Source: Paenibacillus xylanexedens (GTDB lineage Bacteria > Bacillota > Bacilli > Paenibacillales > Paenibacillaceae). From it: a DNA stretch of 44,617 nt. The position numbers were made by a program, and so were the translations under genes. Shown here piece by piece: positions 3,897-42,596 of this stretch (positions are counted from its first letter, which is position 1; each line of letters starts with the position of its first letter). The stretch covers positions 1 to 44,617 of the forward strand of contig NZ_CP018621.1 of the NCBI RefSeq assembly GCF_001908275.1, in the 5' to 3' direction. The notes beneath the pieces were generated by a model. It searched no databases, had not been told where the DNA came from, and worked only from the letters and a program-made list of their open reading frames with translations.

Positions 3897-4276
3897 TTGA
3901 AGGTCTGAAGAACGATCGGGCTGATGCTACAGGCTCTAAGGCGGCAAGAGCGGCCCCCTAAGAGCCTGTACGCCCCGCTGCGGGGTTACTTGGCCCGATA
4001 ACCAGAGCGCCTAAACCGGGCCAGAGCGTCCCGGCTAAGGCGCTCTAGGTTCCTGTGCCGCGCTTAACACCCCGCACGGAGCCAAGGTCAAGGGCATGCT
4101 GGGGCAGATCGGGGAAGGCGTGGCAGCATCATGAACGCTCCGCGTTGCTACGCTTATCATCAAGCGGCCACGCTGAAGGGCAAGCACCATGATTCCGCTG
4201 CGCTGCATCATCGTGCAAGGGCTTTGTGAGCTGAAGCAGAGAAGGAAGGAGAGAACCGGCATACGCCGGTTCTTTT
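3897..4276 (+). ncRNA. large structured RNA, copy 1 of 3 (about 380 nt)
   Basis: This region is repeated at 39170-39547 and 42214-42596, and no shared protein frame explains the conservation. Paired elements include TACAGGCTCT/AGAGCCTGTA (3928-3937/3961-3970), the hairpin CCCCGCTGCGGGG, AGAGCGCC/GGCGCTCT enclosing CCGGG/CCCGG, GCGTGGC/GCCACGC (4118-4124/4167-4173), and GCACCATGAT paired with ATCATCGTGC. It ends in a terminator, AGAACCGGC-ATAC-GCCGGTTCT plus T run. Stem changes between copies are compensatory. I do not recognise the family. Minus-strand and plus-strand frames across it are judged spurious. Confidence 0.75.
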
Positions 4277-4287
4277 TGATGGAAAGC

Positions 4288-4533
4288 ATTTTTTTCCCTT
4301 TTGCCTTCCGCATGGTATCAGCTCCCAGCCCGACCAGGCCCCCGGCGCGTGAGCCTCCGGCTACGCCCCTCTTCACACCGGGGGCCAAGACGGGCAGCCA
4401 TTCGTTCAAGGGGCAGCAAAACTTTTTCTTCCCGTTTTGAAAAAGAAGAATCGGAAGAAAAACTTTTGCTGCTGATCCCTTGACCGCCTGTCTATGGGAC
4501 TGATTCCAAGCATGCGTCAAAAGGGAAAAAAAT
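4288..4533 (+). ncRNA. long-stem structured leader, copy 1 of 2
   Basis: ATTTTTTTCCCTTTTG (4288-4303) pairs exactly with 4518-4533, and CGCATG (4309-4314) with CATGCG (4511-4516), closing a domain of about 245 bases. Inside, GGCCCCCGG (4337-4345) pairs with CCGGGGGCC (4378-4386), capped by AGCC-TCC-GGCT. An A/T-rich long hairpin follows at about 4409-4484. The homologous copy at 42603-42848 keeps the pairing while one helix has entirely different sequence. It lies between the terminator of the 380-nt RNA and the gene at 4598, so it may be a 5' leader or a DNA hairpin element. Confidence 0.65.
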
Positions 4534-4597
4534 TCCCCTTTGGGGATGCCAGCCACGCGGCAGGCAACGTCCAAAAAATTAGAAAGGGGCAGATGCA

Positions 4598-5182
4598 GTG
4601 AAGCGGATCATCTATGTGGCCGGAGTAAACCGGAAGCACCTAGCAGAACAAGCAAGCAGCGTCCCTTATTGGCTTCTCAGCGCCACACTCCTGAAAAAGT
4701 ATCCGTCCTGGCTTGAGCCATACCTGAGATTTAGAACAGTCATATGGGACCCAGGGACGTTCACAGAGGATTGCATTTCATACCAGGGTTACCGGGCCTA
4801 CATTGACCGACACGTTAAATCACGGCACCGGTACATGCAGTATGATGAGATCGGTAACCCTGAAGCGACAGAATGGTATCTGAAGGATATGCGGAGTCGT
4901 GGTTACCGGCCGATACCCATCCTACAGCCGGGCGGCGATAGAAAAATGCTTCAGACAGAACCACTTGTCTTTATCGGCGGTCTGGTTCCGATGAATGAAC
5001 TCAGCCGCATGCAGTATCTGGACGGGCTACTGAGCGGCAGCGTGCGTGCCAAGCTTCACCTTTTGGGAATGATGCGGTCTGAATGGAACCGGCGCAAGAC
5101 TACTGCCGAATGGATGCTTGAATATGGAGAACAGTGGGTGCCGCACGTACCGCGAAAGACCGTCCAATTAGCGTTATTTTAA
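4598..5182 (+). CDS. TGT-like (queuine tRNA-ribosyltransferase superfamily) barrel protein, 194 aa
   Basis: GTG at 4598 follows GAAAGGGGC. Residues about 45-140 resemble the core of tRNA-guanine transglycosylase-like proteins: a DPGTFT motif where the family has D-S/P-G-x-F, then a YDEIGNPEATEW segment, a RGYRPIPIL strand, and an FIGGLVPM strand resembling the family's GGLVP motif. The length (194) is far shorter than bacterial Tgt (about 370) and agrees better with short phage/plasmid TGT-like or DpdA-related proteins. It could act on tRNA or on DNA bases, or only bind nucleotides. It is the cargo gene between the leader RNA at 4288-4533 and the hairpin RNA at 5193-5295. Confidence 0.55.
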   Translation: MKRIIYVAGVNRKHLAEQASSVPYWLLSATLLKKYPSWLEPYLRFRTVIWDPGTFTEDCISYQGYRAYIDRHVKSRHRYMQYDEIGNPEATEWYLKDMRSRGYRPIPILQPGGDRKMLQTEPLVFIGGLVPMNELSRMQYLDGLLSGSVRAKLHLLGMMRSEWNRRKTTAEWMLEYGEQWVPHVPRKTVQLALF

Positions 5183-5192
5183 CGGCAAAAAG

Positions 5193-5295
5193 GGCTATAA
5201 CCGCTCGCAACGGTTATAGCCCCTAAATCAAAACCCTAAATAGTTTCAACCTCTACTGAAGGTTGGGTAAGAGGGATGCTTTCTCGACTCTTACG
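5193..5295 (+). ncRNA. three-hairpin RNA element, copy A
   Basis: GGGCTATAACCG-CTCGCAA-CGGTTATAGCCC (5193-5222) is followed by CCTAAATAG, a CAACC/GGTTG hairpin (5248-5265) and GTAAGAG/CTCTTAC (5267-5294). The same order with changed stems occurs at 43445-43552. It directly follows the cargo gene. It has no proper T run, so it is more than a simple terminator. Confidence 0.6.
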
Positions 5296-5422
5296 AAAAT
5301 ATTATATCATATTTTAATTTTTATGCAACTTAAAATTCCAATTAATGGAGGTATTGTCTTCTAAGTCTGATGCAAGTATTTGACATAAAAACCTAAAATA
5401 TCACAAAAGGAGATGTGGTTCT

Positions 5423-5608
5423 ATGGTTAAAAAAAGCATGCTCATGAAAGTCCGAATTGAACGTGCCAGGAATCGCCTTCACACACTGACAGAAAAACAC
5501 AGGAATTTTCAACATCCAGCCGTAATCAAGCAATCTATGGTATTGGATGAATTAATTAATCAGTATAATAGGACAGGAGAGCAGCAAATAAAAAAGCCGA
5601 TTGGATGA
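5423..5608 (+). CDS. Spo0E-family aspartyl-phosphate phosphatase, 61 aa
   Basis: ATG at 5423 follows AAAGGAGATG. The protein is a helical hairpin with the family signature around residues 32-46 (HPAVIKQSMVLDELINQY, matching S-x-x-L-D). Spo0E-like proteins dephosphorylate Spo0A-P in the sporulation phosphorelay, so the plasmid may delay host sporulation. Size and motif agree with chromosomal relatives of about 50-85 residues. An A/T-rich promoter region (5296-5420) precedes it, and a GGGCGAG/CTCGCCC hairpin at about 5620-5652 follows. Confidence 0.8.
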   Translation: MVKKSMLMKVRIERARNRLHTLTEKHRNFQHPAVIKQSMVLDELINQYNRTGEQQIKKPIG

Positions 5609-5736
5609 ACAATCGACTTGGGGCGAGAAACTTTTGCCGGGTCACTCGCCCTTATAGTTTAACAGATCATGCAAAAAAACGGGATACAATTACGGATGCA
5701 TTCTGAATTGAAACGCCAGGGAAGGAGTCCAAAATC

Positions 5737-6287: not shown

Positions 6288-6377
6288 GTCGCTCCTGTTC
6301 AGGAGCGTGGATTGAAATAGAGTTGTATATTTGTTTTTGAAAGAAACGTCGCTCCTGTTTAGGAGCGTGGATTGAAA
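6288..6377 (+). CRISPR. two-repeat, one-spacer CRISPR-like unit (type I-C-like repeat)
   Basis: Two 30-base copies differing at one position (6288-6317 and 6348-6377) begin GTCGCTCC, contain the palindrome CTCCTG-TT-CAGGAG, and end GTGGATTGAAA, the usual end of subtype I-C repeats. The 30-base spacer is at 6318-6347. An A/T-rich stretch precedes and a terminator follows. No cas gene is in the window. The period of 60 is a little shorter than usual for I-C (about 66), so an orphan remnant is possible. Confidence 0.6.
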
Positions 6378-6400
6378 AACAACTACATATCTAAATTAAG

Positions 6401-6434
6401 AAGAGCCAGTGATTAATTATCACTGGCTCTTTTC
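6401..6434. terminator. terminator after the CRISPR-like unit
   Basis: AAGAGCCAGTGAT (6401-6413) pairs with ATCACTGGCTCTT (6419-6431), followed by T. Confidence 0.8.
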
Positions 6435-10175: not shown

Positions 10176-11582
10176 ATGTCTATTGCTGTCCAGTCAAAAG
10201 TAGCGCAAGACCATATATTACGTCGGTTTTTCAGGTCGCAAGTCCAAGAGACCCCTAGCAGGCACAAACAATCAAGTGCTGGGCGGGGCTACGATTTTGG
10301 CTGGATTTATACCAGCCAAGATTGCAAAACATATAAGGCATGCCGGTCATATGAAACTTTAGACTTACATGCCCAAAGTAATACATACTACACCCCGAAT
10401 ACATTCTATCGTAACGATCGGCGCGCCCAGGAGACGCTTCGCTGGCTAAATGCTGTTGTATTGGACGTTGATACAAAAAGTGGCCAAAATGAAGGGCTTA
10501 TTTTGCCTGAGCTTTTGGACCGGATCAGCGCAGCCGGTTTGCCCCAACCCTCTCTTATTGTCCGGACACCTTCAGGCGGCTTTCATGTGCACTTTATCTT
10601 GGATCAACCTCGCAAGGCGTATTCTAATGCTGTGCGCCGGTACCAGTTGCTTCAGCGGACAATCGCTGAAGCTATTGGTGCTGATCTCAAGGCCATCGGT
10701 GCCGAACGTTTCTTCCGGATTCCTAATGACAGTAACATTATCTTTCAAAGCGACTCTACGGTGTCGTTTGATGCATTAAATGACTGGTACTGGATTAATC
10801 ATGTCGAAAGCCGTACAAGCCGTTCTAGGGCTGCTGGACGGGCTGATTTAGGTGCCAGAGGGATATTGCAGCACCCGGCTTTCCAGGCCTTGCTACGTGG
10901 TGTACAAATTGGTGCCAGGGATCAGACTGCCTATACTTTGGCATTAGCATTTAAAGTAGAGGGATATTTGGAGGAAGAAGCAGCAGCTAAATTGCACACC
11001 TGGAATGAGATACTGGATACACCTTTACCGTGTCGAGAAATTGAAAAAAAAGTAAAAAGTGCATTCCGTGAAGGGGCAAAAAAAGGCCCGAAAGCATCCA
11101 TCGTAACGGAACTCTCTGGAATCGCATTTCAATATGGCCCGATATGGGAGCCAGCGAAGCCAAGAGAGGAACGTAAAAACAGCCATTTTGATGAATGGGC
11201 AAATGATGTAATTACATCCCTGAAGGCGTTGCCTGGGAATGAAATAGTAGATTCACAACGAAAACTGGCCGCTCATTGGGGCATGTCTTTATCGTCTTTT
11301 CAGCATGTAATTCGTATGTTAATAGACTCGAAACGTATTACCGTAGAGGTTACCGGAAAAGGCCGGGCAGCTCAGACGGTTATTCGTCTAGTCTGTGATG
11401 AGTTGGAACCGGAAAAAATAGATAGCAGCAGCCCCCTTGTATCCAGCGGGGCGAAGACTCAATTTTTCAATGTACCAAGCTCCAATACACTTATCCTAGA
11501 TACGGTGGTGGGTGGGGCCGGTTTTCTCCTTGGCCGTTTCATTTATGTGCGGGGCCGGCTTCCTGGGACAGATCCGCCTTGA
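10176..11582 (+). CDS. rep: replication initiator with primase-polymerase (AEP) and PriCT domains, 468 aa
   Basis: ATG at 10176 follows GGGAG. The N-terminal ~210 residues carry archaeo-eukaryotic primase motifs: VVLDVDTK (about 93-100, the DxD motif), GGFHVHF (about 134-140, the sxH motif) and GAERFFRIPND (about 172-182). Residues about 230-305 fit the primase C-terminal PriCT-1 domain (GARDQTAYTLALAFKVEG, then PLPCREIEKKVKSAF). The C-terminal ~100 residues contain a winged-helix-like segment (SQRKLAAHWGMSLSSFQHVIRML). Such proteins start replication of several Gram-positive plasmids by priming at the origin. The upstream antisense RNA supports a copy-controlled rep gene. No other replication gene is in the window. 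Confidence 0.8.
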   Translation: MSIAVQSKVAQDHILRRFFRSQVQETPSRHKQSSAGRGYDFGWIYTSQDCKTYKACRSYETLDLHAQSNTYYTPNTFYRNDRRAQETLRWLNAVVLDVDTKSGQNEGLILPELLDRISAAGLPQPSLIVRTPSGGFHVHFILDQPRKAYSNAVRRYQLLQRTIAEAIGADLKAIGAERFFRIPNDSNIIFQSDSTVSFDALNDWYWINHVESRTSRSRAAGRADLGARGILQHPAFQALLRGVQIGARDQTAYTLALAFKVEGYLEEEAAAKLHTWNEILDTPLPCREIEKKVKSAFREGAKKGPKASIVTELSGIAFQYGPIWEPAKPREERKNSHFDEWANDVITSLKALPGNEIVDSQRKLAAHWGMSLSSFQHVIRMLIDSKRITVEVTGKGRAAQTVIRLVCDELEPEKIDSSSPLVSSGAKTQFFNVPSSNTLILDTVVGGAGFLLGRFIYVRGRLPGTDPP

Positions 11583-12718: not shown

Positions 12719-13456
12719 TTGATTAACAAATACACGGATTTTAAAGCGAAGGACTTGGAGATTCTACGCTTTATCCTGAAACATGGAATCGTTACGTCCA
12801 AACAAATTCAGACCCACATTAATGAATCTGGGATTCATAATGTTTATCGTAGATTGAGAAAGTTGGAGAGTGCAGGAATGATCTGGAAGAAAAAACTTGC
12901 GCTCACACTGAACGTTTATTTTCCAAAACGGGATGCTAGGGATTTTATGGACTACCCGGTTACTGTTGCAAACGATACAAGCATGTATACCGCGCAGCAT
13001 GATTTAATCATCAATGATTTGATTTTGCATTTGAAGGCGAAACTGAAGAATCAAGAATTCGACTATAAAACGGAGCGGGAATATCGCTTTGAGCTGCTTG
13101 AAGATCGAGGTAAGGCGGAAATGCTCAAAAAGTGGAATGAGATCCGCGAGACATTGCCCGATTTTGTCATTCTGCTGACGAATCACACAATAGCCGTGGA
13201 AGCTGAACTGAATACGAAAGCCGTATCCAGGCTCCAGAAGAAGATTGATCTTTATGCGCGGGAGATCCGGGAGGGGAAGTATACTGAAGTTTGGTATTTT
13301 GTTCCGAACGGTACGGTGGGCAACGCCATTGAACGTGCGAAGGTTCTGGTGGCTAAAGAGTGGGGAAATAAAGCCCGTTCAGCCGAAACCGAAGCTGGCG
13401 TAAACGTCTTCAAGCAAATCAGCGTGAAATCCCTACCGGAAGAGGTAAGGAGCTGA
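12719..13456 (+). CDS. replication-relaxation family protein, candidate relaxosome component, 245 aa
   Basis: TTG at 12719 follows AGGAGG. The N-terminal ~75 residues are a winged helix (ILRFILKHGIVTSKQIQTHI, then VYRRLRKLESAGMI). The C-terminal half contains LPDFVILL and an IAVEAELNTKAVSRLQKKI stretch that could be a PD-(D/E)xK-type nuclease core (D, then E-x-E). This layout fits the 'replication-relaxation' family found at the head of Gram-positive transfer operons. It is the first gene of the conjugation operon, and no other relaxase is visible. Whether it nicks oriT is inference. Confidence 0.7.
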   Translation: MINKYTDFKAKDLEILRFILKHGIVTSKQIQTHINESGIHNVYRRLRKLESAGMIWKKKLALTLNVYFPKRDARDFMDYPVTVANDTSMYTAQHDLIINDLILHLKAKLKNQEFDYKTEREYRFELLEDRGKAEMLKKWNEIRETLPDFVILLTNHTIAVEAELNTKAVSRLQKKIDLYAREIREGKYTEVWYFVPNGTVGNAIERAKVLVAKEWGNKARSAETEAGVNVFKQISVKSLPEEVRS

Positions 13457-13460: not shown

Positions 13461-15839
13461 GTGCAGCGAAGTGCTGACGATGATCAACTACTACAAGGCA
13501 GAACTGACGAAGAAGCCAAAACGGTAGGACAGATAGCGATTGCTGTGATCGGGCTTGTGGCTGCGTGTTTTACTTTATTCGCTCTTATAACGGCGGCAGT
13601 GATTTATGTGGGAGTCGTGTTTGGGATCAAGAAAAAATGGATTTTGTACACGCTCCTACCGGTGGCTGTATTTGGTTTGCTGGTTATACACGGGACTCAT
13701 GAATGGGTGGCGCTATTGGGCTTTATGTCCTGGCTTCAGATCCCGTATGTTACGCCACTGGCAGAAGAATACTTGAATCGCAGCCAACCGTTTCCGGTTA
13801 ATGCTTACAGCTATGTAGGGACGTTATCCTTGGGGATTCTGATGGCAAATGTAGCACATCCGTTCATTGCATACTATCGTAGTAAAATTATCAAATCGAA
13901 GCATGACGGACTCCGGAAGCAGAAAAAGGAACGCGACTATCAACAATTCCGACTAAAAAGGGAAAAATACTTGAATAAAAAACAACTTCAATTCCGCAAA
14001 TCTAACTCGTCCGAAAATTTTATTGGATATGACGAGTTTCAGCAGCGGGTGGCATTGAAAGCACATGAGCCGAATCAGCATATTTTGGCTGTTGCCACAA
14101 CTGGTGGCGGTAAAACCGTCTTAATCGGAACGAATGTAGAAAACGCATTGCGTCAAAACAAGCCGGTCATCTTTATGGATGGCAAGGGTGAGCTGAAATC
14201 CATGCTTGAATTTAAGGAAATGTGCGAGAAACACGGGCGCACCGTCCATATGTTCACGGACGTAGACGAATTATCATTTAACTTTTTGCGGCACGGATCG
14301 CCAACACAACTACGGGATAAGGTCATGAACCTGTTTGAATGGTCTGAACCATTCTACAAAACGAACTGTTCCAGGTTTCTGCAGCTCGTCTTTCGGATGC
14401 TTCGAGACTTTAACCAGCCGATTGAACTGGAAACCGTGTACGAGTTTACAGCAAGGTCTAAGGTTGCGCGGTTCTTGGCTGATCAGACTGAACGGGCAAA
14501 AGTAAAGATTGAGGTTCCAAAGCGTGAAAAGGTAGCAAAATTTGTGTTGGATCAAGAACCATTACCGGAGGAACAGCCGGAGCCGGAATCGCCCGAGCTG
14601 ATTGGGGAAGAAATCACGGAAGCGGTGGGCGAAGAATCTACAAAAGAAGCAGAGCTGCCGGAAGAACCGGAGCCAAATCCAGAATCAGAACCTGTTGAGC
14701 TTACCAATGAAGACTTAGCGAAACTGTTGGGCGATATCCCTACAGCAGAGCCAGAAGATTCTGCCGCGGCTCTTTTTGGGCTTCAAGATGAAATAGAACC
14801 GGTTGACACGAGCATGGCCGTTGAAGCAGAGCCAATACGACCATCCAAGGAATCCGAGCCACTTGTAAAGGAAGATGTTCAGGATCTTCCAGCAGCGGAC
14901 ATTCCAGAGGAACCACCTACTACCGTAGATCCGGAAGAGGAAGAAGAGCCGGTGAGAGCAAGTACACTGTTTGAAGGGCTTGAAGGTGATGCGGAGGAAC
15001 CGAGTGAACCCGAGGTTCGGTATCAGGTTGAATGGGACGAGGAAATGAGAGCCAAAATCGAATATTACCGGGAACGGTTCTTCGGATTAGAGGAAGAGGA
15101 TGACGATGATGAACCTTCAGGGATCAGTTTTGGCGCACTGACCAGTTTGCGTAATCAACTGGCCGAACTCATTGAATCTGATCTTGGGCATTTATTTGTT
15201 GAAAGAGAAGATGGCATCGACCTTAAAACGATAACGGATAACAACGAAGTTGCGATATTCTCCATTTCGGGCAACAAGTATAAGGATTATATCAAGACAC
15301 TTGGCCGTGTCGTGATCATGGAAGTGAATACCCTGGTAGACTATCGTCAAAAAGAGGGCAAGAAGTCTATCATGTCAGTCTATGACGAGTTTTCGGCTTA
15401 TGTCAGTCATGAAGTGGTGGATGTTATCAATAAGAGCCGGTCTGCTGGTTTTGAGTGCCTGTTGTCCGTACAGGGGCTATCAGACATTGATGCGGTTGAT
15501 CCTGTGCTTACCCGGCAAATCATCAACAACTGTAATACGTACATGATTGGGCGGGTTAACGATCCGGCAGATGCCGAAGTGCTTGCGGCTGCATGCGGAA
15601 CGTATGAAGACGCAGACATTACCAGTCAAGTTGAAAAGAACGTTTGGAAGAAGCGGTTTGAATCTGAAATGGGTACGGTCCGAATGGTACAGCGTTACCG
15701 GGCGCATCCAGACGATATTCGCGGATTAGGCACCGGGGAGGTTTTCTTGTGTAGGAAGACCATTGACCAAGACGGTGCGCCTTATGTAGCCCGTGTTTAC
15801 GTGCGTAATGCGCTTGATCTCACCGGCATCGGTGCTTAA
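13461..15839 (+). CDS. VirD4/TcpA-type coupling ATPase with a large acidic insert, 792 aa
   Basis: GTG at 13461 follows AAGGAG in the end of the previous gene. Hydrophobic segments at about 22-53, 58-78 and 115-135 anchor it in the membrane. Walker A is ATTGGGKTV (about 212-220) and Walker B is SVYDEFSAY (about 637-645). Between them, residues about 365-550 are a low-complexity E/P/D-rich stretch not found in typical coupling proteins, which explains the large size. Coupling ATPases bring the relaxosome to the secretion channel. The position next to the replication-relaxation gene fits. Confidence 0.85.
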   Translation: MQRSADDDQLLQGRTDEEAKTVGQIAIAVIGLVAACFTLFALITAAVIYVGVVFGIKKKWILYTLLPVAVFGLLVIHGTHEWVALLGFMSWLQIPYVTPLAEEYLNRSQPFPVNAYSYVGTLSLGILMANVAHPFIAYYRSKIIKSKHDGLRKQKKERDYQQFRLKREKYLNKKQLQFRKSNSSENFIGYDEFQQRVALKAHEPNQHILAVATTGGGKTVLIGTNVENALRQNKPVIFMDGKGELKSMLEFKEMCEKHGRTVHMFTDVDELSFNFLRHGSPTQLRDKVMNLFEWSEPFYKTNCSRFLQLVFRMLRDFNQPIELETVYEFTARSKVARFLADQTERAKVKIEVPKREKVAKFVLDQEPLPEEQPEPESPELIGEEITEAVGEESTKEAELPEEPEPNPESEPVELTNEDLAKLLGDIPTAEPEDSAAALFGLQDEIEPVDTSMAVEAEPIRPSKESEPLVKEDVQDLPAADIPEEPPTTVDPEEEEEPVRASTLFEGLEGDAEEPSEPEVRYQVEWDEEMRAKIEYYRERFFGLEEEDDDDEPSGISFGALTSLRNQLAELIESDLGHLFVEREDGIDLKTITDNNEVAIFSISGNKYKDYIKTLGRVVIMEVNTLVDYRQKEGKKSIMSVYDEFSAYVSHEVVDVINKSRSAGFECLLSVQGLSDIDAVDPVLTRQIINNCNTYMIGRVNDPADAEVLAAACGTYEDADITSQVEKNVWKKRFESEMGTVRMVQRYRAHPDDIRGLGTGEVFLCRKTIDQDGAPYVARVYVRNALDLTGIGA

Positions 15840-17174: not shown

Positions 17175-17639
17175 ATGCAGCAGCGAAAGGATATGTTTGT
17201 TCTCAATGAGTTTCTGAAGTTTGAACGCAAACTGTATCAGTTTGCTGGCTTTAAAGTAGGTCGGCCATTAAAGCTGAAGTCTATTGGCTACTTTTTCGCT
17301 ATCGCCGCTATTATGGTGGTTTGGTACTACATTCCTGTACTGAATATACCTTTAAAAATACTACCAAGCTCTATTCTCCTTGCTGCACCGTTCATGTTCA
17401 CGTATCTACTGATTGATGTAGGGACGGAGAACCGACCACCCATTAAGTTTGCAAAGAGTATGTTCCTGTATCACATGCGGAAATCAAAACGTGTCACGTA
17501 CTTTAAGGGGAAGGAGCTGGACCGGCCAAAGTCATATGGCTTTGGCGGTCAGCTTTCGGCCAGAGAATATCGGCAGAAGAAGAAAAAGAAGAAGCGTACC
17601 CATTACCAATTTGAAGGGTACATGACCATGCGAGATTAG
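17175..17639 (+). CDS. TcpE family conjugation membrane protein, 154 aa
   Basis: ATG at 17175 follows GGGGG. An NEFLKFERKLYQF start, two membrane helices (about 39-58 and 63-84), a DVGTENRPPIKF loop and a basic C-terminus fit the TcpE family. TcpE-type proteins (TcpE of pCW3, ConD of ICEBs1) sit at the membrane base of the transfer machine. It lies between TcpD-like and VirB4-like genes, the conserved order. Confidence 0.8.
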   Translation: MQQRKDMFVLNEFLKFERKLYQFAGFKVGRPLKLKSIGYFFAIAAIMVVWYYIPVLNIPLKILPSSILLAAPFMFTYLLIDVGTENRPPIKFAKSMFLYHMRKSKRVTYFKGKELDRPKSYGFGGQLSAREYRQKKKKKKRTHYQFEGYMTMRD

Positions 17640-23725: not shown

Positions 23726-26700
23726 AGAAATTTACTATCTTGGGCGGGCTGGCCTTGATTCCGATTCTTTTTGTGGGTGCGCTGTTTGTACTTATGATTA
23801 TGGTCATGATGTTCAGCAGCTCGGATTCTTCTGAAGGGAATTACGGCGGCGGTGGATGGGGGAGCGGGATTATTTCGCAGCTCGGGGAATCTGAGATTCC
23901 AGCGGAGTATATTCCAATCTATCAAGCTGCCGCACAAAAATATGGAGTCCCTTGGAACCTGTTAGCTGCGGTACACCGCATTGAAACCCGGTTCTCTACA
24001 TTAGATCCTATGATTTCGTCCGTTGGCGCAGAAGGCCATATGCAGGTGCGCCCATAAGGGCATAAAAGAAATCTCCCTGTGGCAAGGGAGCAGATCAAAC
24101 CACAATAATCTGTCACCAACCAACTTATCCGTGAGGGAAACCAATATCGGGGAGTGTAGCATGTTGGGAAAAGCCATAAGTTGCTTAGTTGCCGAAGCAC
24201 GACTGAATGGCGAGGTGAAACGTTGTAAACAAGGATGAAAGCTAAACTGCTTCAATGATAGTCCGAGGGAGCTAATGGGCCGCTCGTATCGGAAGGTAGC
24301 TACAAACGATACGCAACCCGATTTTCTACTAAGAAGACACAGCTCATCAAGTTAACTGCATGCTTGGTGAGAGTGGTTCTGGGTTGACCGACCTCAATAA
24401 GAGGAAAAGGGCGAACGTCACATCCGATATTACAACAAGCCGTTTCTTTTATGTCTAAATGGGGATTGCCTAAGTTGGAACGCTCAGTAGAGCTATGACG
24501 AAGGAGTCTGAATATCCAATAAGGTAACGGAGTTCTCGTAGTAGTCCGAGGTAGGGAAAGCCTATCACATGGCGAAGGAGAACAGTTTTTCAAGTCTAGC
24601 AACCTAATGGAAAGGAGCGTGAGGCTCCATGAGAAGTCCAGAAACCGTGCTAGACAATCTAGCCAAGCAAGCATTACGTCCAGATTATAAGTTCCAGAGG
24701 CTATATAGGAATCTGTACAATACAGATTTCTATCTAATGGCTTACTCAAAAATTTACGCTAAAGAAGGAAACATGACTCCAGGTTCAGAGGGAGAAACCA
24801 TCGACGGTATGAGCCTTGAGCGTATCCAAATGTTGATTCAAAACCTTAAAGACTTCAGCTATCAACCCAAACCATCCAGAAGGGTATACATTCCGAAAAA
24901 GAATGGTGGAAAACGCCCCTTGGGAGTTCCCTCATTTGAAGATAAGCTCTTGCAAGAAGTGATCAGAATGATCCTGAATAGTATCTATGATCCTGTGTTT
25001 TCGACAAAATCTCATGGTTTCAGAGAAAACAGAAGCTGCCATACTGCACTCAAACAAGTAAAGAACACGTTCACTGGGGTTAAATGGTTCGTTGAAGGCG
25101 ACATAAAGGGATTCTTCGACAACATTGACCATCATACGCTCATCAACATACTTAAACGAAGAATTGATGATGAAGCGTTTATGAATCTTATTTGGAAGTT
25201 CCTCAGAGCAGGATTCGTTGAGAACTGGACATTTAATAACACATACAGTGGTACTCCACAGGGGGGAATTATCAGCCCTGTCCTATCAAATATTTATCTC
25301 AATGAACTTGATAACTTCGTTGCGAAGTTGAAATATTCATTTGATAAGGGGAAAGCGCGGAAGAGGCTTAAAGAGTACCGTACAAGAGAGGCCAGACTCA
25401 TAAGAGCCAAAGGAAGCTACCGAGCCAGATGGACCGAACTTAAACCAGTGGAAAAAGAAATGTGCAGGCAGCACGTTAAAGAGCTTAAGAAACAGATGAT
25501 GGAACTACCCTACAAAGACCCGATGGATGATGGCTACAGAAGAATACAGTATGTTCGATACGCTGACGATTTTCTGCTAGGTGTGATCGGGAGCAAAGAA
25601 GACTGTATAGGAATCAAGCAAGCCATAACAAAATTTCTTGAAACAGAACTAAAAATAGAGCTGTCTCAAGAGAAAACGTTAATTACTCACTCCAGTAAAT
25701 CGGCTCGTTTTCTCGGATATGATGTGCGGATTAGCCACGATGCAGACACAACGAAAAAAACAGCAAGTGGCCATAAACAACGCACTAGAACCATGGCGGT
25801 CGAATTGCTTATGCCTCACGAGGCATGGAGAGATAAGTTGCTTGATTATAAGGCTTTGAAGATCGAATCAGATACGCAAAAGTGGGAATCCATTCATCGA
25901 GGACACCTCTTACAAAATGATGACCTAGAAATACTACTGGCTTACAATGCCGAAATTAGAGGCATATACAACTATTACAAGCTGGCTAATGATGTTTACA
26001 AGCTGGACAGCTTCAAGCACATTATGGAATACAGCATGTACAAGACGTTCGCCAATAAGTATAAAACTAGCGTTAGGAAAATCAACGCTAAGTTTAGAAT
26101 TAACGGTCATTTTGGAGTCAGATACGACACCAAAAAAGGGTCGAAAGTTGCCTTCTTCTATAGCGCAGGTTTTAAAAAGGTGCAATCGGAGGAATTCGAT
26201 CCGAAAATGGATCTCCTTGCAGATTACAAAAGGAATTATATCTATAATCGGACAAAACTCGTTGACCGCCTTCTATCCAGAAAATGTGAATGGTGTGAAA
26301 TGGAGGGTGTGCCCCTTCAAATGCATCACGTAAGAAAGCTCAAGGATTTGAAGGGGAAGAAAAGATGGGAAAAGCGAATGATTGAGCGTAAGCGGAAAAC
26401 CCTCGCTCTTTGCAGAAGCTGCCATCTGGATTTACACAACGGGAAGCTAGATTGAAAAATGGAGAGCCGTATACGCGGAGACGTGTACGTACGGTTCGGG
26501 GAGGAGTATTTGGAAACCTGTCATAGTGATATGACAAGGCGCTGGATACTTACTCTACTTCATGCCTTGTACTTTTATCGGATGGGGGCATAGCTCCTGC
26601 GGCGGTGCAGGGAAGGGGGATTTCAGCGCTGAGGAAAAAATCAGTTTGGCCGTAATCTCCCAATATGGCGGCTATGGCGTAGATGCTAATGGAGACGGGA

Positions 26701-32508: not shown

Positions 32509-32544
32509 AAACCAATCAATCAATATATTAGAATTGAAAAAAAC

Positions 32545-32748
32545 ATGACTGGAATAGAGTATCAGCGACAATCGAACTTTGTACATGGTCAGATCCAGAT
32601 AACAACCCTTCTCTTGGGTGAAGAATGGAAATACAAGGAGACAGGGCGTACCTACTATGAATACCTAACCTATCTAGTAAACAAGTATGAACTGCTTGGG
32701 GTATATCGAATTAACGAGCTTAAAGTGGGAGGATCAAAACATGATTAA
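32545..32748 (+). pseudogene. truncated duplicate of the 182-aa gene (C-terminal 67 aa)
   Basis: The 67-residue frame is about 75% identical by eye to the C-terminus of the protein at 32770-33318 (shared YLVNKYELLGVYRINELKVG). It lacks the N-terminal ~115 residues. Homology extends some 35 bases upstream of the ATG. It may still be translated. Confidence 0.75.
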
Positions 32749-32769
32749 AATAGAAAGGGCTGTATATTC

Positions 32770-33318
32770 TTGACTGAACAATATATTGCAAGTATTAAAA
32801 ATAACACAACAGGTACATGGGTAAGTGAAGTAACTCCTAATGAAAATATAACTCAATCATGGTTCAAACCTAAGATTATTCTTAGTTATAGTTCGACTCT
32901 TTTGAAAGAAGACCGCCTTATATTCAGAGAGAAAAAAGAAGCTGAAAGTGTGCTGAAAACATTAAACTCTATTTCTTCCGATACGTTCACTATCGTAATT
33001 GAAAAGGAAGATGTTATTGTGAGTGAAGACTTTCCTACTGTATGTGTAAAACCAGAACAATTTCGAGAATTGCTGACACAACAAATCAATGAATTTATAA
33101 GAATTGAAAAGAACGAAACTGGATTAGAGTATCAGCGAAAGTCGTACTTTGTACGTGGTCAGATTAAAATGATAACCCGTCTCATAGGCGATGAAAGGAG
33201 ATATGAGGAAACAGGGCGCAGCGACTATGAGTTCCTAACCTATTTAGTAAACAAGTATGAGTTGCTTGGGGTATATCGAATAAACGAGCTTAAAGTGGGG
33301 GGAGCAAAACATGATTAA
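32770..33318 (+). CDS. hypothetical protein, full-length member of a local duplication, 182 aa
   Basis: TTG at 32770 follows GAAAGGG. The N-terminal part is beta-rich (TWVSEVTPNENITQ, PKIILSYSSTLLK), and the C-terminal ~75 residues are helical and conserved in the truncated copy at 32545. No known domain. The end overlaps the next gene by 8 bases. Confidence 0.6.
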   Translation: MTEQYIASIKNNTTGTWVSEVTPNENITQSWFKPKIILSYSSTLLKEDRLIFREKKEAESVLKTLNSISSDTFTIVIEKEDVIVSEDFPTVCVKPEQFRELLTQQINEFIRIEKNETGLEYQRKSYFVRGQIKMITRLIGDERRYEETGRSDYEFLTYLVNKYELLGVYRINELKVGGAKHD

Positions 33319-33697
33319 AGTGGTAGAAGTGTTGCCAGGGCAGGAACCAGTTATAAAGGAAATACCGTCACTACATGGTACATATGGGCAAGAGCTGTTT
33401 AAGGAGCCCTGGCGCGATCATAGCAAGTTAGGTAATGATTTATATGTGGCCGTTGGAGATTCAGCGGCTCTTACCGGCAAGCCGGTTAACTTTACCCTTT
33501 CTTTCGGGTCGGCTCCGGTGAGCGTCTGCGGACCAGCCGTTTTTGTGACAAGGGTTTGGGAGAGCGGTGGCGAGACGTTTGACGAGTATAAGTCTCTGTT
33601 AGCCGGGGAAGCAGCGGCTATTGTGGAGTTGTTAAAAAGGGATCGGAGCCGATTCGATCCGAGTGAGTTTCATGAACTTCTAGGCTTGGAAATCTAA
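33311..33697 (+). CDS. hypothetical protein, possibly DUF3846-like, 128 aa
   Basis: ATG at 33311 follows GGGGGGAG and overlaps the preceding gene. The start IKVVEVLPGQEPVIKEIPS, then a DLYVAVGDSAALTGKPVN core and GPAVFVTRV strand, resembles the DUF3846 family of plasmid and phage proteins. The match is from memory of the pattern only. Function unknown. Confidence 0.6.
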   Translation: MIKVVEVLPGQEPVIKEIPSLHGTYGQELFKEPWRDHSKLGNDLYVAVGDSAALTGKPVNFTLSFGSAPVSVCGPAVFVTRVWESGGETFDEYKSLLAGEAAAIVELLKRDRSRFDPSEFHELLGLEI

Positions 33698-33994: not shown

Positions 33995-34306
33995 TTAATG
34001 CTGTGTCCAATAGTCGATATTATGGATCGGTTCGATGGGGGTAGCTTTGGGTTCAACGATTTCCCAACCTTGTAGTATTTTAATAGACTCGACTTGTTTT
34101 TTGTTGTCCCAGGTAATAAAGAGCTGGTCTTCCAGACGAATTAAGCACTTTTGGATCTCGCCGTTGGATTTACCCGTTTTATTCATTAACTCTTGCATGG
34201 AAGGCATTCTCCTACGCGCAACGGAATAGTTGTAGAGGATTCTATGGATCTTGCGCTCTAAATCTGAAAGCATCGCAGCAGCTCCTAAGCTATTTGAATA
34301 CTTCAA
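33995..34306 (-). CDS. winged-helix DNA-binding protein, 103 aa
   Basis: Residues about 14-75 fit a winged helix with an HTH (MPSMQELMNKTGKSNGEIQK, then LEDQLFITWDN wing), similar to LexA/MarR-type small HTH proteins. The C-terminal tail is P/I-rich. A 63-base piece of its 3' end is duplicated at 34679-34741. Target unknown. Confidence 0.65.
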   Translation of the reverse strand: MKYSNSLGAAAMLSDLERKIHRILYNYSVARRRMPSMQELMNKTGKSNGEIQKCLIRLEDQLFITWDNKKQVESIKILQGWEIVEPKATPIEPIHNIDYWTQH

Positions 34307-34330
34307 TTATAAGAGAACGCATGTTCCTTT

Positions 34331-34516
34331 TCAAGATTGCATAAATTGAAGTGAGTCTGTGAGTATATATATTCTATCTCTATTTTTTGATACAACAGTT
34401 ATGTTGTCTCCATAATGCGATATATCATGAGTTAGTAAGTCAAATTCAACTTCGTTTTGGATTTTTCTTTCGCCATCTTCAAGTTCAACCGATGTAGCTT
34501 TCAACATAAAAGTCAT
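34331..34516 (-). CDS. hypothetical protein, 61 aa
   Basis: ATG at 34516 follows AAGGAGATC. The small protein is beta-rich (NEVEFDLLTHDISHY, DNITVVSKNRDRIYIL). Its promoter and ribosome site are part of a duplicated block (about 34505-34640 and 35028-35160). Confidence 0.55.
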   Translation of the reverse strand: MTFMLKATSVELEDGERKIQNEVEFDLLTHDISHYGDNITVVSKNRDRIYILTDSLQFMQS

Positions 34517-34745
34517 TTGAGATCTCCTTCAGAATGAATAGTGCCTATAATCTTATCACATTTAGATATTTATAGTAAATTCATTATCCATACCTCCATT
34601 CTCTCTATAACGTACAGTTTATAAGCGGGAGCCTGTTAAATACATATTATTGTATTACCGATGGAATTGCGGCGTAGGTCCAATAGTCGATATTATGGAT
34701 CGGTTCGATGGGGGTAGCTTTGGATTCAACGATTTCCCAGGATTT
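34505..34745. repeat. mosaic of duplicated fragments
   Basis: 34505-34640 repeats 35028-35160, the region upstream of the AbrB-like gene. 34652-34675 repeats the AbrB-like coding bases near 35260-35283. 34679-34741 repeats 34008-34070 from the winged-helix gene. The joins are abrupt, so this is a recombination scar with pseudogene pieces. Confidence 0.8.
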
Positions 34746-34850
34746 ACCCAACTTCTCGTCCTGCATCCTAGCAAAATGCCCGGCTCCCCGATTCTTAGGG
34801 TGGAGTTTAGGTACGTACGTCTCATACGGTCCAATTCAGTAGGATTCATA

Positions 34851-35027
34851 CTACTTACCCTCCCAACGATGACCACAATCACGGCACTCATGGAACAACA
34901 CTTGCTCGACAACATAATCCACCAGTGAACGAATCTCACCGTTCTCAACTAAAGCAGATCCTCTTATGTTCACACGACTATACACATCATTACTTTCACA
35001 GTTGACACATTCCATGAACATTCTCAT
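34851..35027 (-). CDS. small zinc-ribbon protein, 58 aa
   Basis: ATG at 35027 ends at TAG in 34853-34851. The protein has CVNC (residues 7-10) and CRDC (48-51) followed by GHRWEG, a common ending of small zinc ribbons. The ribosome site AAGGAGA lies 13 bases before the ATG and belongs to the duplicated block, so the gene may have gained a new promoter by duplication. A later Met (residue 3 or 5) could be the original start. Confidence 0.6.
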   Translation of the reverse strand: MRMFMECVNCESNDVYSRVNIRGSALVENGEIRSLVDYVVEQVLFHECRDCGHRWEGK

Positions 35028-35202
35028 AAGTCATTTGAGTTCTCCTTCAGAATGAATAGTATTTATAATCTTATCAAACAAATTAGATATCTATAGCAAA
35101 TTCATTATCCATACCTCCATTCTCTCTATAACGTACAGTTTATAAGGGATTGGCTATTAAGTACATATGGTACAATAAGGAAAAATAGGTGAAGGAGTAG
35201 TT

Positions 35203-35727
35203 ATGAAAAAAGATAGAAATACGGGAATGGTACGCAAGATAGATGCATTGGGGCGTATTGTGCTGCCGATGGAATTGCGGCGTGTACTTGGAATTGAGAT
35301 TGGCGATCCGCTTGAATATTTTGTTGATGATGATAATGTACGTCTGACACTGAGGACATATCGAACCCAGGAATGCATGTTTTGTTTAACAACCGTTGAG
35401 CTGTCTTATTTTAAGGAATATTTCATCTGTGGTTCATGTTTAGAACAGGTTTCCGGAAACGAGAAATTGCCTGAAGAGGTAGCGGCATCCGATCCGGAAG
35501 TGGCCGCTACGTTGGAAGAAGTAAACACTGAAAAAGAAATAGCGATTAAACCAAAATGGGCACGAAGCAAGGAAACAATCCTCCTGCTGGCTAAGGTTAT
35601 GGAACAGTACCCGGATGCACCACAAAAAAAGTGGGCCGAGCTGGTGGGTATATCCCAGGGCCGAGTCAGTCAGTTAGTGAAAAAATTGAATACAGCCGAC
35701 CGATCTCCTGGATCTGGTGAACACTGA
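35203..35727 (+). CDS. AbrB-like regulator with zinc ribbon and C-terminal HTH, 174 aa
   Basis: ATG at 35203 follows GGAG. Residues 6-50 form an AbrB/SpoVT swapped-hairpin domain (GMVRKIDALGRIVLPMELRR, then GDPLEYF). Residues 62-86 hold CLFC-type knuckles (CMFC and CGSC). The C-terminal ~50 residues carry an HTH (KKWAELVGISQGRVSQLVKKL). The three-domain build is unlike plain AbrB (about 95 aa). It probably represses plasmid genes in response to growth state. Confidence 0.8.
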   Translation: MKKDRNTGMVRKIDALGRIVLPMELRRVLGIEIGDPLEYFVDDDNVRLTLRTYRTQECMFCLTTVELSYFKEYFICGSCLEQVSGNEKLPEEVAASDPEVAATLEEVNTEKEIAIKPKWARSKETILLLAKVMEQYPDAPQKKWAELVGISQGRVSQLVKKLNTADRSPGSGEH

Positions 35728-37625: not shown

Positions 37626-38706
37626 TGACGGATTGTAATATGAAGTGCGACACCTACTGGAAATAAATAAAAAAGGCCCATGGCCGGATTCGTGTAGAAT
37701 GAAAGTTCTCACACCCCATTCACACAAGGAGAATCCACCATGAGCTACACACATCTTAGCATAATCGAACGCAGCAAGCTAGAAATCCTCCACCAGCAGG
37801 GCAAAAGCTCACGAGCGATCGCAAAGGAGCTGGGCAGACACCCTTCGACCATTTGCCGTGAATTAGAGCGTACAGCTTCATCCGAATCCTATGAAGCGGA
37901 ACAAGCTCAACATGCTTATCAGAAACGTCGTAAAGCCTCGATATCCAACGGTAAATGGTCCGATACACTGGCTGCTTCGCTTGAGGAAAAACTCGACGCC
38001 ACATGGTCTCCTGAACAAATCACGGAACGTTTCCGCGTCGATGGTCTGCCGGTGGTCTCCTTTAAAACCATCTATCGCTGGATCTACGCAGGACGTCTGG
38101 TTCAAGGCACATTACAGGTCTTACGTCATAAAGGGAAGCGCCAGAAACCCGCAGAAACCCGCGGTAAATTCGCCATAGGCAGAACCATTTCAGAACGTCC
38201 GAAAGAGGTCCGTTCTCGTAAAACGTTTGGACACTGGGAACTGGATACCGTCGTATCGGGTCGAGGGAAAAGTAAAGGCTGTGTGGCCACACTCATTGAA
38301 CGTAAAACGCGTCTGTATACCGCGATTCTCATGCCAGATCGTACCGCATTGTCCATGGAGATCGCACTTGGTGTAGCCATCTCACAGTACCCCACAGGGA
38401 CGTTCCTCACGACTACAGCTGACCGGGGCAAGGAGTTTGCTTGCTATGCCAACCTGGAAACGACCCATGGCCTGCAGGTTTATTTTGCTGACCCCTATTC
38501 ATCCTGGCAACGGGGTTCCAACGAAAATGGGAATGGGTTACTTCGAGAGTTCCACCCCAAGGGCACTGATTTCGCTCAAGTGGAGGATGAAGATCTCGTC
38601 CACTCCCTAGATTTAATCAATAACAGACCCCGAAAATGCTTGGGGTGGAAAACCGCTCACGAATCTTTCACAGAGGAACTGTCGCACTTGGTTTGACAAT
38701 CCGTCA
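37626..38706 (+). mobile_element. IS30-family insertion sequence, 1081 bp
   Basis: Imperfect inverted ends of about 26 bases start TGACGGATTGT at 37626 and close at 38706, and both ends also share AAGTGCGACA. A CA dinucleotide flanks both ends (37624-37625 and 38707-38708), consistent with a 2-bp target duplication. Length is normal for IS30 elements. Confidence 0.9.
37740..38696 (+). CDS. IS30 family transposase, 318 aa
   Basis: ATG at 37740 follows AAGGAG. The N-terminal HTH (HLSIIERSKLEILHQQGKSS, then IAKELGRHPSTICRELER) fits IS30. The DDE catalytic core shows GHWELDTVVSGRG (first D), TTADRGKEFA (second D) and the E in QRGSNENGNGLLREFHPKG, with DPYSSWQRGSNEN typical of IS30. The reading frame is intact, so the element may be active. 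Confidence 0.95.
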   Translation: MSYTHLSIIERSKLEILHQQGKSSRAIAKELGRHPSTICRELERTASSESYEAEQAQHAYQKRRKASISNGKWSDTLAASLEEKLDATWSPEQITERFRVDGLPVVSFKTIYRWIYAGRLVQGTLQVLRHKGKRQKPAETRGKFAIGRTISERPKEVRSRKTFGHWELDTVVSGRGKSKGCVATLIERKTRLYTAILMPDRTALSMEIALGVAISQYPTGTFLTTTADRGKEFACYANLETTHGLQVYFADPYSSWQRGSNENGNGLLREFHPKGTDFAQVEDEDLVHSLDLINNRPRKCLGWKTAHESFTEELSHLV

Positions 38707-39169: not shown

Positions 39170-39547
39170 GGTCTGAAGAACGATCGGGGCTGATGCTACC
39201 GGCTCTAATGCGGCAAGAGCGGCCGCCCAAGAGCCGGTACGCCCCGCTGCGGGGTTACTTGGCCCGATAACCAGAGCGCCTAAACCGGGAAAGAGCGCCC
39301 CGGCCAAGGCGCTCTAGGTTCCTGTGCCGCGCTTTACACCCCACACGGAGCCAAGGTCAAAGGCGGCATGCTGGGGAAGCTCGGGGAAGGCATGGCAGCA
39401 TCATGAACGCTCCGCGCTGCTACGCTTATCATCAAGCGGCCACGCTGAAGGGCAAGCACCATGATTCCGCTGCGCTGCATCATCGTGCAAGGGCTTTGTG
39501 AGCTGAAGCAGGGAAGGAAGGAGAGAACCGGCATACGCCGGTTCTTT
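39170..39547 (+). ncRNA. large structured RNA, copy 2 of 3
   Basis: Homologous along its whole length to 3897-4276. The TACCGGCTCT/AGAGCCGGTA stem (39197-39206/39230-39239) differs from copy 1 by one compensated pair. The GCATGGC/GCCACGC stem holds one A-C mismatch, an intermediate state. It ends with the same terminator. The leader domain and cargo gene of the other copies are absent; a lipoprotein gene follows instead. Confidence 0.75.
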
Positions 39548-41339: not shown

Positions 41340-41343
41340 AAAA

Positions 41344-41499
41344 TCACCTCTTTACATTTTTTTGTATTTCATTCTTTAAGCCATTAATAGCATCGCTCAG
41401 ATCAGATATTTTTTTTTCGAATCGAATAAGTAGATACAAAGTAATTGCAATCGGGAAACCTAAATTAGCAATAATAGCAGCAATGTCACCCTCCATCAT
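41344..41499 (-). CDS. yvrJ: YvrJ-family membrane peptide, 51 aa
   Basis: The start ATG (41499, or 41496 next to it) overlaps the stop of the sigma gene. The sequence NLGFPIAITLYLLIRFEKKI fits the YvrJ family: a short helix with GFP, then LLIR and a K/E-rich amphipathic tail. YvrJ is found next to SigO-type factors. Function unknown. It is small and was identified by translating the gap. Confidence 0.8.
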   Translation of the reverse strand: MMEGDIAAIIANLGFPIAITLYLLIRFEKKISDLSDAINGLKNEIQKNVKR

Positions 41500-41930
41500 A
41501 ATTCATCCCCTTCCGTTATTAAGTTGCGCAATTTAGTTAGAGCTTTTAAGCGGTGTTTCGAGACATTTTGCTGGGATACTCCCAATATTCTGGCTATTTC
41601 CTTGTCATTTAGTGCTTGTACGTAAGCAAAAGATAAAATCTGTTGTTGTTGTGCTGAGAGGGATTCATACGCTTGATAAAGTGAGTGATCCGCAATGTGA
41701 TCTTTTAAATTTGGTGGCACAGATTCAGAGTCATAAACTGCAAGTAAGGCAGAATCTATGTTTTCATCGGTGTCTAAAGTTAGCTGGAAGCGGCTGTCCT
41801 TCATTCGTCTCTTTTTGTCATAATTAATAGAGTTGTAGTATATAAGATTGGCCATATACGTGATAAAACGACGATTCAAGTCGTCATCCGTTTTCAATAT
41901 AAGCGCCCCCGTCCTTTTTGAAGAGATCAC
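41496..41930 (-). CDS. SigO/YvrI-like sigma-70 factor (region 4), about 137-144 aa
   Basis: The C-terminal half is a typical region 4 (YESLSAQQQQILSFAYVQAL, then DKEIARILGVSQQNVSKHRLKALTKL). The N-terminal half has a partial region 2-like helix (RFITYMANLIYYNSIN). The start is uncertain: GTG at 41930 lies directly on its ribosome site, and an in-frame TTG seven or so codons later follows GGGGGC. The small size and the RsoA-like partner suggest a two-subunit sigma factor. The upstream motif suggests self-activation. Confidence 0.8.
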   Translation of the reverse strand: MISSKRTGALILKTDDDLNRRFITYMANLIYYNSINYDKKRRMKDSRFQLTLDTDENIDSALLAVYDSESVPPNLKDHIADHSLYQAYESLSAQQQQILSFAYVQALNDKEIARILGVSQQNVSKHRLKALTKLRNLITEGDEL

Positions 41931-41938
41931 TCCTGCCT

Positions 41939-41972
41939 TATAAAGAGAAATGAGATTCGGTTTTTACAACCA
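41939..41972 (-). promoter_or_regulatory. SigO-like promoter motif upstream of the sigma operon
   Basis: Minus strand: TGGTTGTAAAAA at the upstream end and TTCTCTTTATA at the downstream end, total 34 bases, the same length as the lysozyme motif. The location just before the operon fits autoregulation. Confidence 0.65.
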
Positions 41973-42097
41973 ATTTCCAAAATAAAGAACATCTGTTCCT
42001 ATATTTTATCATTGATGACATTATGTTCAATGAAATCAAATCCATTTTTTCTTTAAATATACATATAATTTGACATATAATTTGGACTTATGAATAG

Positions 42098-42164
42098 GTG
42101 CTGCTCCTGGATTGTCGGGGGAGTACCTTTTTTCGTTTCCTGGTTGCAACCAGGTCTTGGTTTA
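42098..42164. repeat. terminator plus paired GGTT-AACC palindromes, copy 3
   Basis: A GCTCC...GGGGGAGTACC hairpin with T6 is followed by the perfect palindrome CCTGGTTGCAACCAGG (42139-42154) and a half-site CTTGGTTT. Same layout as 37485-37555. The stretch 41973-42097 shows no gene. Confidence 0.6.
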
Positions 42165-42213
42165 ATGGATGGGGAGCCGCACATAGACTGCGGGATTTGA
42201 CCATTTCAAGGCT

Positions 42214-42596
42214 GAAGGTCTGAAGAACGAATCGGGCTGATGCTACCGGCTCTAAGGCGGCAGGAGCGGCCACCTAAGAGCCGGTACGCACCGCTGCGGG
42301 GTTACTTGGCCCGATAACCAGAGCGCCTAAACCGGGGTAGAGCGCCCCGGCTAAGGCGCTCTAGGTTCCTGTTCCTCGCTTTACACCCCGCACGGAGCCA
42401 AGGTCAAGGGCGTTCTGGGGAAATCGGGGGAGGCATGCCGGCATCATGAACGCTCCGCGCTGCTACGCTTATCATCAAGCTGGCATGCTGAAGGGCAAGC
42501 ACCATGATTCCGCTGCGCTGCATCATCGTGCCAGGGATCCGTGAGCTGAAGCAGAGAAGGAAGGAGAGAACCGGCATACGCCGGTTCTTTTTGATG
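42214..42596 (+). ncRNA. large structured RNA, copy 3 of 3
   Basis: Homologous to copies 1 and 2 throughout. The stem GCATGCC/GGCATGC (42433-42439 with its partner near 42481-42488) differs from copy 1 (GCGTGGC/GCCACGC) by two compensated pairs. The inner stem is CCGGGG/CCCCGG here against CCGGG/CCCGG. It ends in the same terminator and is followed by the leader domain as in copy 1. Confidence 0.75.

Follow-up and report, generated by a model that had tools for sequence, protein, structure and literature searches.

The window analysed here, the whole 44,617-bp plasmid-type contig NZ_CP018621.1 of Paenibacillus xylanexedens, which stands alongside a 7.05 Mb contig in the same genome, carries three copies of a non-coding repeat of about 380 nt. 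With little doubt these copies belong to the EGeRS1 class (establishment gene regulatory sequence type 1), published for the plasmid pLS20, and represent it in Paenibacillus. Our overall best explanation, which we consider likely, is a Paenibacillus EGeRS1 that would act through single-stranded DNA on entry, by a mechanism that we infer; taken by itself, action through single-stranded DNA has in our estimate slightly less than an even chance. The sequences collected here add a second, large and divergent EGeRS1 set (59 distinct 5' modules and 25 distinct 3' branches), together with a covariation-supported structure and evidence that its pairing is selected in DNA.

According to the sections of the pLS20 study drawn on here (PMC8708921), EGeRS1 is an inverted-repeat-rich sequence before the establishment operons of that plasmid, which include ardC among their genes. 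It is built of a ~325-nt branch before the ribosome-binding site and an optional 5' part of 180 bp, which is missing from copy A, and the published lengths are ~610 bp for EGeRS1-B and 420 bp for EGeRS1-A. The same sections report that the element has no promoter when double-stranded and blocks read-through in its native orientation only, and state that its mechanism is unknown.

The assignment is carried by a covariance model, R1, which was built from 43 Paenibacillus 5' modules (~175 nt) only and whose E-value calibration is rough. On pLS20 (L094), R1 matched 17339-17522, 19264-19445, 11190-11373 and 14552-14735, all on the minus strand, with E between 4e-10 and 1e-8. These places are the 5' parts of EGeRS1-D, E, B and C (letters that we assigned from gene order), all on the operon strand; R1 matched 4/4 of the 5' parts on this plasmid and nothing at EGeRS1-A, the copy published as having none. 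In our measurements B comprises 184 + 415 nt and A 416 nt, and an alignment of the five pLS20 regions gave a part order identical to that in Paenibacillus. Elsewhere, R1 matched immediately ahead of the 3' branch in Cytobacillus (3e-6), in Bacillus methanolicus pBM69 (3e-4) and, partially, in pPC03 (1e-4), with no match before the 3' branch of pPlas2; a second Cytobacillus match (2e-6) stands alone. Four places were found on a B. pumilus plasmid and six on a B. licheniformis plasmid. In the B. licheniformis plasmid (L174, 17938-41286) the establishment block seems to be present twice, ~16 kb apart, with three 5' modules each.

The likeness extends to the overall plan. In both groups the element is two-part, rich in inverted repeats, present in several copies per plasmid and placed before establishment operons with ArdC/zincin genes; both have the optional 5' part of ~180 nt, homologous by the covariance model. 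In both, a CCGGC..GCCGG hairpin with a T-run separates the two parts, and the outer stem of the 3' part is long and A/T-rich. As in EGeRS1, the multi-branched 3' part, which copy 2 does not have, immediately precedes the first gene of an operon. The Paenibacillus copies differ in coming from another genus without a blastn link, in the extra middle hairpins of their long forms, in the many solo 5' modules, and in running with the relaxase gene in the MOBC and MOBQ plasmids read.

Several results weigh against the assignment. R1 found only one place of five in the B. velezensis plasmid and none on pBS72 and SRCM103697, where 3' parts are present. The Paenibacillus and pLS20 3' parts are alike in plan, with sequence similarity below detection (E>2), and the window itself yielded no ArdC. 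A link to pLS20 by blastn or nhmmer was rejected as not significant: blastn gave none to the pLS20 elements (the 65 records found were 64 Bacillus and one Paenalkalicoccus), nhmmer stayed at E>2, and the homology is shown by the covariance model only.

The preliminary description of this DNA had called the repeat unrecognised. This holds for Rfam: a scan of the window gave 19 matches (E up to 5), none of which overlaps the three copies, and a mir-2209 match inside the 3' branch of copy 1 (27 bits, E 0.11) is below threshold and at chance level. It does not hold for the literature, since the 5' module is homologous to the 5' part of the published EGeRS1 (PMC8708921). No paper titled on these elements in Paenibacillus was among those listed in searches of the open-access literature, and Paenibacillus is unnamed in those parts of the main text of a Nature 2024 survey of leading regions that we draw on (PMC11541004).

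Architecture and relatives of the element

All three copies lie on the + strand where they had been described (3897-4276, 39170-39547 and 42214-42596), and they are the sole ones found in the 7.1-Mb genome. Copy 2 is 95% and copy 3 is 93% identical to copy 1, the pairwise range quoted for the three being 93-95%. The terminator ascribed to all of them is indeed common to the three, and the hairpin AGAACCGGCATACGCCGGTTCTTT is present in 3/3. A further ~300 nt downstream, absent from the preliminary description, is common to copies 1 and 3, and the repeated unit belongs together with it. In the complete element (copies 1 and 3), a folded 5' module would be followed by a hairpin insert, then by a terminator, and lastly by a 3' branch with a three-way junction, whose end lies close in front of the leading gene of a putative establishment operon; copy 2 would be a solo 5' module plus terminator. 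The parts and the open reading frames (ORFs) behind them are listed below; A1 denotes an alignment of 43 of the 48 listed references, the five left out (three of L038, L055, L074) all being divergent.

3911..4085, + strand: 5' module of copy 1, the conserved folded core of ~175 nt, included in alignment A1 and in model R1
4086..4251, + strand: middle insert of copy 1 (two extra hairpins, long forms only), from an alignment of 20 long copies
4252..4277, + strand: intrinsic-terminator-like hairpin of copy 1, seen in the sequence and kept in relatives
4286..4567, + strand: 3' branch of copy 1 (outer stem and two arms), by nhmmer and DNA fold, 31 nt before the ORF start
4598..5182, + strand: first ORF behind copy 1, 194 aa, without Pfam match
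5423..5608, + strand: Spo0E-like ORF in the same stretch behind copy 1 (Pfam PF09388, E 3.4e-13)
39180..39354, + strand: 5' module of copy 2 (solo, without 3' branch)
39355..39523, + strand: middle insert of copy 2
39524..39547, + strand: terminator-like hairpin of copy 2
42227..42401, + strand: 5' module of copy 3
42402..42566, + strand: middle insert of copy 3
42567..42592, + strand: terminator-like hairpin of copy 3
42602..42882, + strand: 3' branch of copy 3, by nhmmer and DNA fold, 57 nt before the ORF start
42939..43217, + strand: first ORF behind copy 3, 92 aa, without Pfam match (inner ATG of a longer listed frame)

The ~280-nt 3' branch begins ~10 nt past the terminator in copies 1 and 3, and none is present at copy 2. 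Folded as single-stranded DNA of the minus strand, it forms a long outer stem with two arms, with z-scores of -9.3 (4277-4600, copy 1) and -11.8 (42597-42930, copy 3); copy 1 folded by itself gave -2.7. Relatives fall into two length classes, long ones as in the window and short ones (e.g. L050, L079) without the middle insert, in which a 5' module of ~180 nt runs directly into the terminator. Copy 2 begins ~10 nt behind another terminator, and some relatives begin at a stop codon. No conserved promoter-like site was found before the unit, the best hexamer scores being scattered. Palindromes of the form GGTTNNAACC, a possible operator, lie at 3796-3832 and 42142-42165 of the window; in many relatives such palindromes, often paired, stand between the preceding terminator and the 5' module.

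Of 72,556 plasmid records, 16, every one from Paenibacillus, contain relatives detected by BLAST, as do 23 of 75 Paenibacillus genomes, the genome of the window included. Among 50,697 phage records BLAST found no match, and a phage origin was rejected on this ground. An iterated nhmmer search of the collected loci gave 100 matched pieces, opposite-strand echoes counted in. After exclusion of modules that scored <80, started after model position 12 or had identical first 170 nt, 59 distinct 5' modules remained, of which 21 have a 3' branch within 700 nt and at least 23 a terminator (a lower bound, as the pattern was strict). The 3' branch itself occurs in 13 plasmid records (11 Paenibacillus, pBM69 and one Cytobacillus) and in 11/392 genomes of the order; 25 distinct branches were used, those matching <230 model positions being excluded.

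The genes behind the 3' branch were read in 11 annotated records, namely 10 of the 13 with a 3' branch (three near-identical P. polymyxa records were left out) and P. bovis. The next gene starts 30-140 nt behind the branch in 10 of them and 490 nt behind it in pJ45TS6. In 8/11 records the first five genes include one of the zincin-metallopeptidase/ArdC kind, and pBM69 has a RadC gene in its place. Behind the 3' branches of the window, Spo0E-like and unnamed ORFs only were found.

In 38 of the 59 distinct 5' modules there is no 3' branch within 700 nt, which counts against our best explanation. Together with copy 2, the copies on chromosome-sized contigs, the degeneracy of some copies (L054) and the transposase-type ORF near copy 2, this would suit a dispersed, non-autonomous mobile repeat without a role. 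We regard that explanation as highly improbable: 3' branches hold their position before operons, and pairing is conserved in solo copies, the 24 solo modules of A1 and the 19 with a 3' branch having the same mean pairing (0.924). This equal pairing suggests that the 5' module is retained in its own right, and the most economical guess is that a solo module serves as a priming site.

The module of L054 (2868-2973) is shortened and degenerate and lies on a chromosome-sized contig; the stretch behind it closely resembles the beginning of the ORF at 39667, downstream of copy 2. The transposase-type ORF (HTH_38 + rve) spans 37740-38696 of the window, close upstream of solo copy 2.

Pairing in RNA or in DNA

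The preliminary description had claimed selection for a folded structure, and the 43 relatives in A1 bear this out. Under the consensus structure 92.4% of cells are paired, compared with 31.9-40.0% after a shift of the partners by 1-3 columns, and 28 of 57 pairs show changes on both sides against 14.3 in shuffles, none of 500 shuffles reaching 28; the structure was derived from A1 itself, which favours these pairing figures. Covariation, the check proposed at the outset, is thus visible in the double changes, but few pairs pass a stricter, tree-aware test that we wrote ourselves (at E<0.05, two pairs with 53 sequences and one with 20), all three of which lie in predicted helices. The compensated stems also read as described: ACAGG/CCTGT in copy 1 stands against ACCGG/CCGGT in copies 2 and 3, and GCGTGGC/GCCACGC in copy 1 against GCATGCC/GGCATGC in copy 3. 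Copy 2 is intermediate (GCATGGC/GCCACGC), and its odd pair is A-C, not G-U.

Covariation by itself is no proof of RNA, and a count of G-U against A-C is a simple added test: in an RNA under selection, G-U is better tolerated than A-C. We counted parsimony events from Watson-Crick to G-U and from Watson-Crick to A-C, as read on the + strand, at pairs that are at least 75% Watson-Crick, and ran controls through the same script. The G-U:A-C counts were 26:36 in the 5' modules (53 sequences), 16:23 in the long copies (20 sequences, overlapping the 5' module set), 17:30 in the 3' branches (25 sequences) and 3:7 in pLS20-type 3' branches (18 sequences). The RNA controls gave 11:0 for RNase P (29 sequences, loci in one orientation) and 29:7 for signal recognition particle (SRP) RNA (25 distinct of 30 sequences taken, identity 81%); the latter was added because the identity of the RNase P set (94%) exceeds that of the element sets (61-67%). 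The contrast with SRP RNA has p 0.0003 for 5' modules and 0.00006 for 3' branches.

At a 50% Watson-Crick filter this contrast is stronger. Counts at the 50% and 85% filters were 35:53 and 21:26 for 5' modules, 28:48 and 12:19 for 3' branches, 7:9 and 1:6 for the pLS20 set, 42:11 and 13:7 for SRP RNA, and 12:0 and 8:0 for RNase P; with the A1 structure held fixed they were 20:38, 18:24 and 17:19. Pairing in DNA is argued from this lack of an RNA-type preference for G-U over A-C. A weak lean towards folding of the template strand follows as well, because A-C read on the + strand corresponds to G-T in the template strand; the odd pair of the intermediate stem in copy 2 shows A-C directly. Mutational strand bias as the source of A-C was rejected, as the loop changes of the 5' set (G>A 81, C>U 64, A>G 107, U>C 36) do not favour A-C overall.

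Other observations argue the opposite way. At the strictest filter (85% Watson-Crick) the SRP RNA contrast loses significance (p 0.18 and 0.09). A-C outweighs G-U only weakly (66/109, p 0.03, from events that are not fully independent), and raw cells of the pLS20 set at the loosest filter show 40 G-U against 17 A-C. Other mismatches are commoner in the elements than in the controls, with 61 events in the 5' modules; because of them, misalignment or decay may dilute the G-U signal and weaken the test. A choice of strand by folding energy was rejected: the minus strand folds better in 50/53 cases, and nearly all of this advantage is base composition, the excess being 1.0 kcal/mol (standard deviation 3.7).

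These results bear on the claim of the preliminary description that the repeat is an RNA, which is not supported, G-U not being in excess of A-C and no conserved promoter-like site preceding the unit. A true structured RNA from the + strand (leader, 3' untranslated region or small RNA), for example an attenuator or antiterminator before establishment genes, appears unlikely. The fixed polarity of the terminator, the constant order of module, terminator, branch and gene wherever all parts occur, and the position of some modules directly behind a stop codon, where they would be transcribed as a 3' untranslated region, speak for it, as does the read-through block of EGeRS1-B that works in one orientation only (in the pLS20 sections cited, PMC8708921). 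The wobble pattern unlike that of the two RNA controls (for SRP RNA not significantly so at the strictest filter) speaks against it, as do the missing promoter-like site and the minus strand, which folds no worse than the plus strand once composition is removed.

GOLLD, ROOL, HEARO and OLE are large, structured RNAs, some of them on mobile elements. The three copies differ from them in having no Rfam match and no RNA-type wobble pattern.

The near equality of A-C and G-U is also what extrusion from a duplex would yield, and with the paired GGTTNNAACC palindromes before many copies it would fit a double-stranded DNA element, a cruciform or protein-binding array that insulates operons expressed by another route. 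We hold this to be rather improbable, as the helices are long-range and nested, unlike simple cruciforms, and the single-strand fold of the 3' branch is very strong.

Strand polarity and a possible mode of action

For the MOBQ plasmids that bear the element we relied on a nic motif and polarity that we take to be those of this relaxase family. The motif was found upstream of mobQ on the opposite strand in three plasmids (one exact match, two with one mismatch), each time behind an inverted repeat (by eye, in the printed stretches). The elements run with mobQ in 4/4 MOBQ plasmids read, including pONU554, where only 5' modules were found, and pPlas2, where only a 3' branch was found. In these plasmids the transferred strand would therefore be the template of the establishment genes. 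In 6/6 MOBC-type plasmids read, the window counted in, the 3' branches run with the relaxase gene, which in four of the six was assigned by position (the gene before the coupling protein); a solo module in L078 (14445), also a MOBC-type plasmid, runs against it. Matches to a nic motif in the window were no better than chance, and none was found in pPC03 at one mismatch. The gene concerned in the window is:

12719..13456, + strand: relaxase-type gene (Replic_Relax, PF13814, E 4e-07), direction shared with all three copies

We propose three steps. In the resident double-stranded plasmid the element would have no promoter and would halt read-through from upstream. This step has been shown by others for pLS20 EGeRS1-B, according to the sections cited (PMC8708921); for the Paenibacillus copies we infer it from two features, the presence of a terminator and the failure to find a conserved promoter-like site. 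When the DNA becomes single-stranded during conjugation, the element may fold in the cell, a step for which foldability and conserved, DNA-like pairing are shown here. By analogy with Frpo/ssi, the fold on the entering template strand might then recruit RNA polymerase (or a priming machine) and could cause the establishment genes to be expressed in a burst that lasts until this strand has been copied.

Like the Frpo/ssi elements of F and ColIb-P9, as described in the parts of the survey cited (PMC11541004), the element is folded non-coding DNA before leading-region anti-defence operons, and the template strand is transferred, as would also be the case in the MOBQ plasmids. Compared by description only, it differs in being longer, in its three-way junction, in having no recognisable -10 and in its built-in terminator. 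The -35 and -10 boxes joined in a stem, as in Frpo, were not found in the 3' branches: by eye, most have TTGAC 17 nt from a TTCCCA-like hexamer that does not match a -10. A further likeness, again by description only, is to sso1 of ICEBs1, a single-strand DNA signal in Gram-positive conjugation (PMC4595007, in the sections drawn on). A bolder and doubtful proposal is that EGeRS1 elements are the Gram-positive counterpart of Frpo. In plasmids that transfer the template strand, the element would fold in that single strand into an unusual promoter or primer site without a -10 box and so give the establishment operon an expression burst, with the 5' module as an independent single-strand device that also works alone.

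Three points tell against promoter action on single-stranded DNA. A good -10 box was not seen, the TTCCCA-like hexamer being a poor one. Elements and relaxase gene point in opposite directions in the two MobP2 plasmids read, as in pLS20. For pLS20 itself, the sections cited report transfer of the non-template strand and rate a single-stranded promoter as highly unlikely (PMC8708921). Given the seemingly opposite polarity in MOBQ plasmids, this objection may hold for pLS20 and not for all carriers; where strand polarity is seemingly opposite to that of pLS20, the argument that excludes single-stranded promoters may fail.

A single-strand priming site of the sso/ssi kind, present several times per plasmid, would start complementary-strand synthesis in the recipient without being a promoter. 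This is a minority possibility, somewhat less improbable than a structured RNA. It accords with several same-direction copies 1.6-4 kb apart on some contigs, with the equal pairing of solo and linked modules and with the functional sso reported for ICEBs1 (PMC4595007, same sections). Against it, priming has no need of 3' branches that end near gene starts, and MOBQ plasmids and pLS20 differ in how the element is oriented relative to the strand transferred.

Other features of the plasmid

The conjugation-type genes lie on the + strand of the window and include the Replic_Relax gene at 12719 and, up to 27.3 kb, genes for an AAA ATPase, an M23/SLT hydrolase, TcpC, TcpE and a coupling protein of the TraG/D type. 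A KfrA_N gene and an actin-like gene are also present on the 44.6-kb contig.

Behind the copy-1 operon lies a mini CRISPR (clustered regularly interspaced short palindromic repeats) array at 6288-6379, with two 31-nt repeats and a 29-nt spacer, and a terminator-like hairpin comes after it at about 6403-6433. On the chromosome there are a Csd1 gene of type I-C (E 4e-114) and an array of 30+ repeats that are related but not identical to those of the plasmid. Racr are RNA anti-CRISPRs; given the chromosomal Csd1 gene and the related array, the plasmid repeats may act as a Racr made with the establishment genes.

Within the conjugation cluster there is a group II intron (24629-26558) with a reverse transcriptase/maturase/HNH ORF; Rfam matches the intron at 26462-26558 (5.9e-11). 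Direct duplications occur at 32510-33319 and 34005-35283 (240 nt at 84%; 86, 62 and 49 nt at 90-98%), past the conjugation genes and close to a MazE-like ORF.

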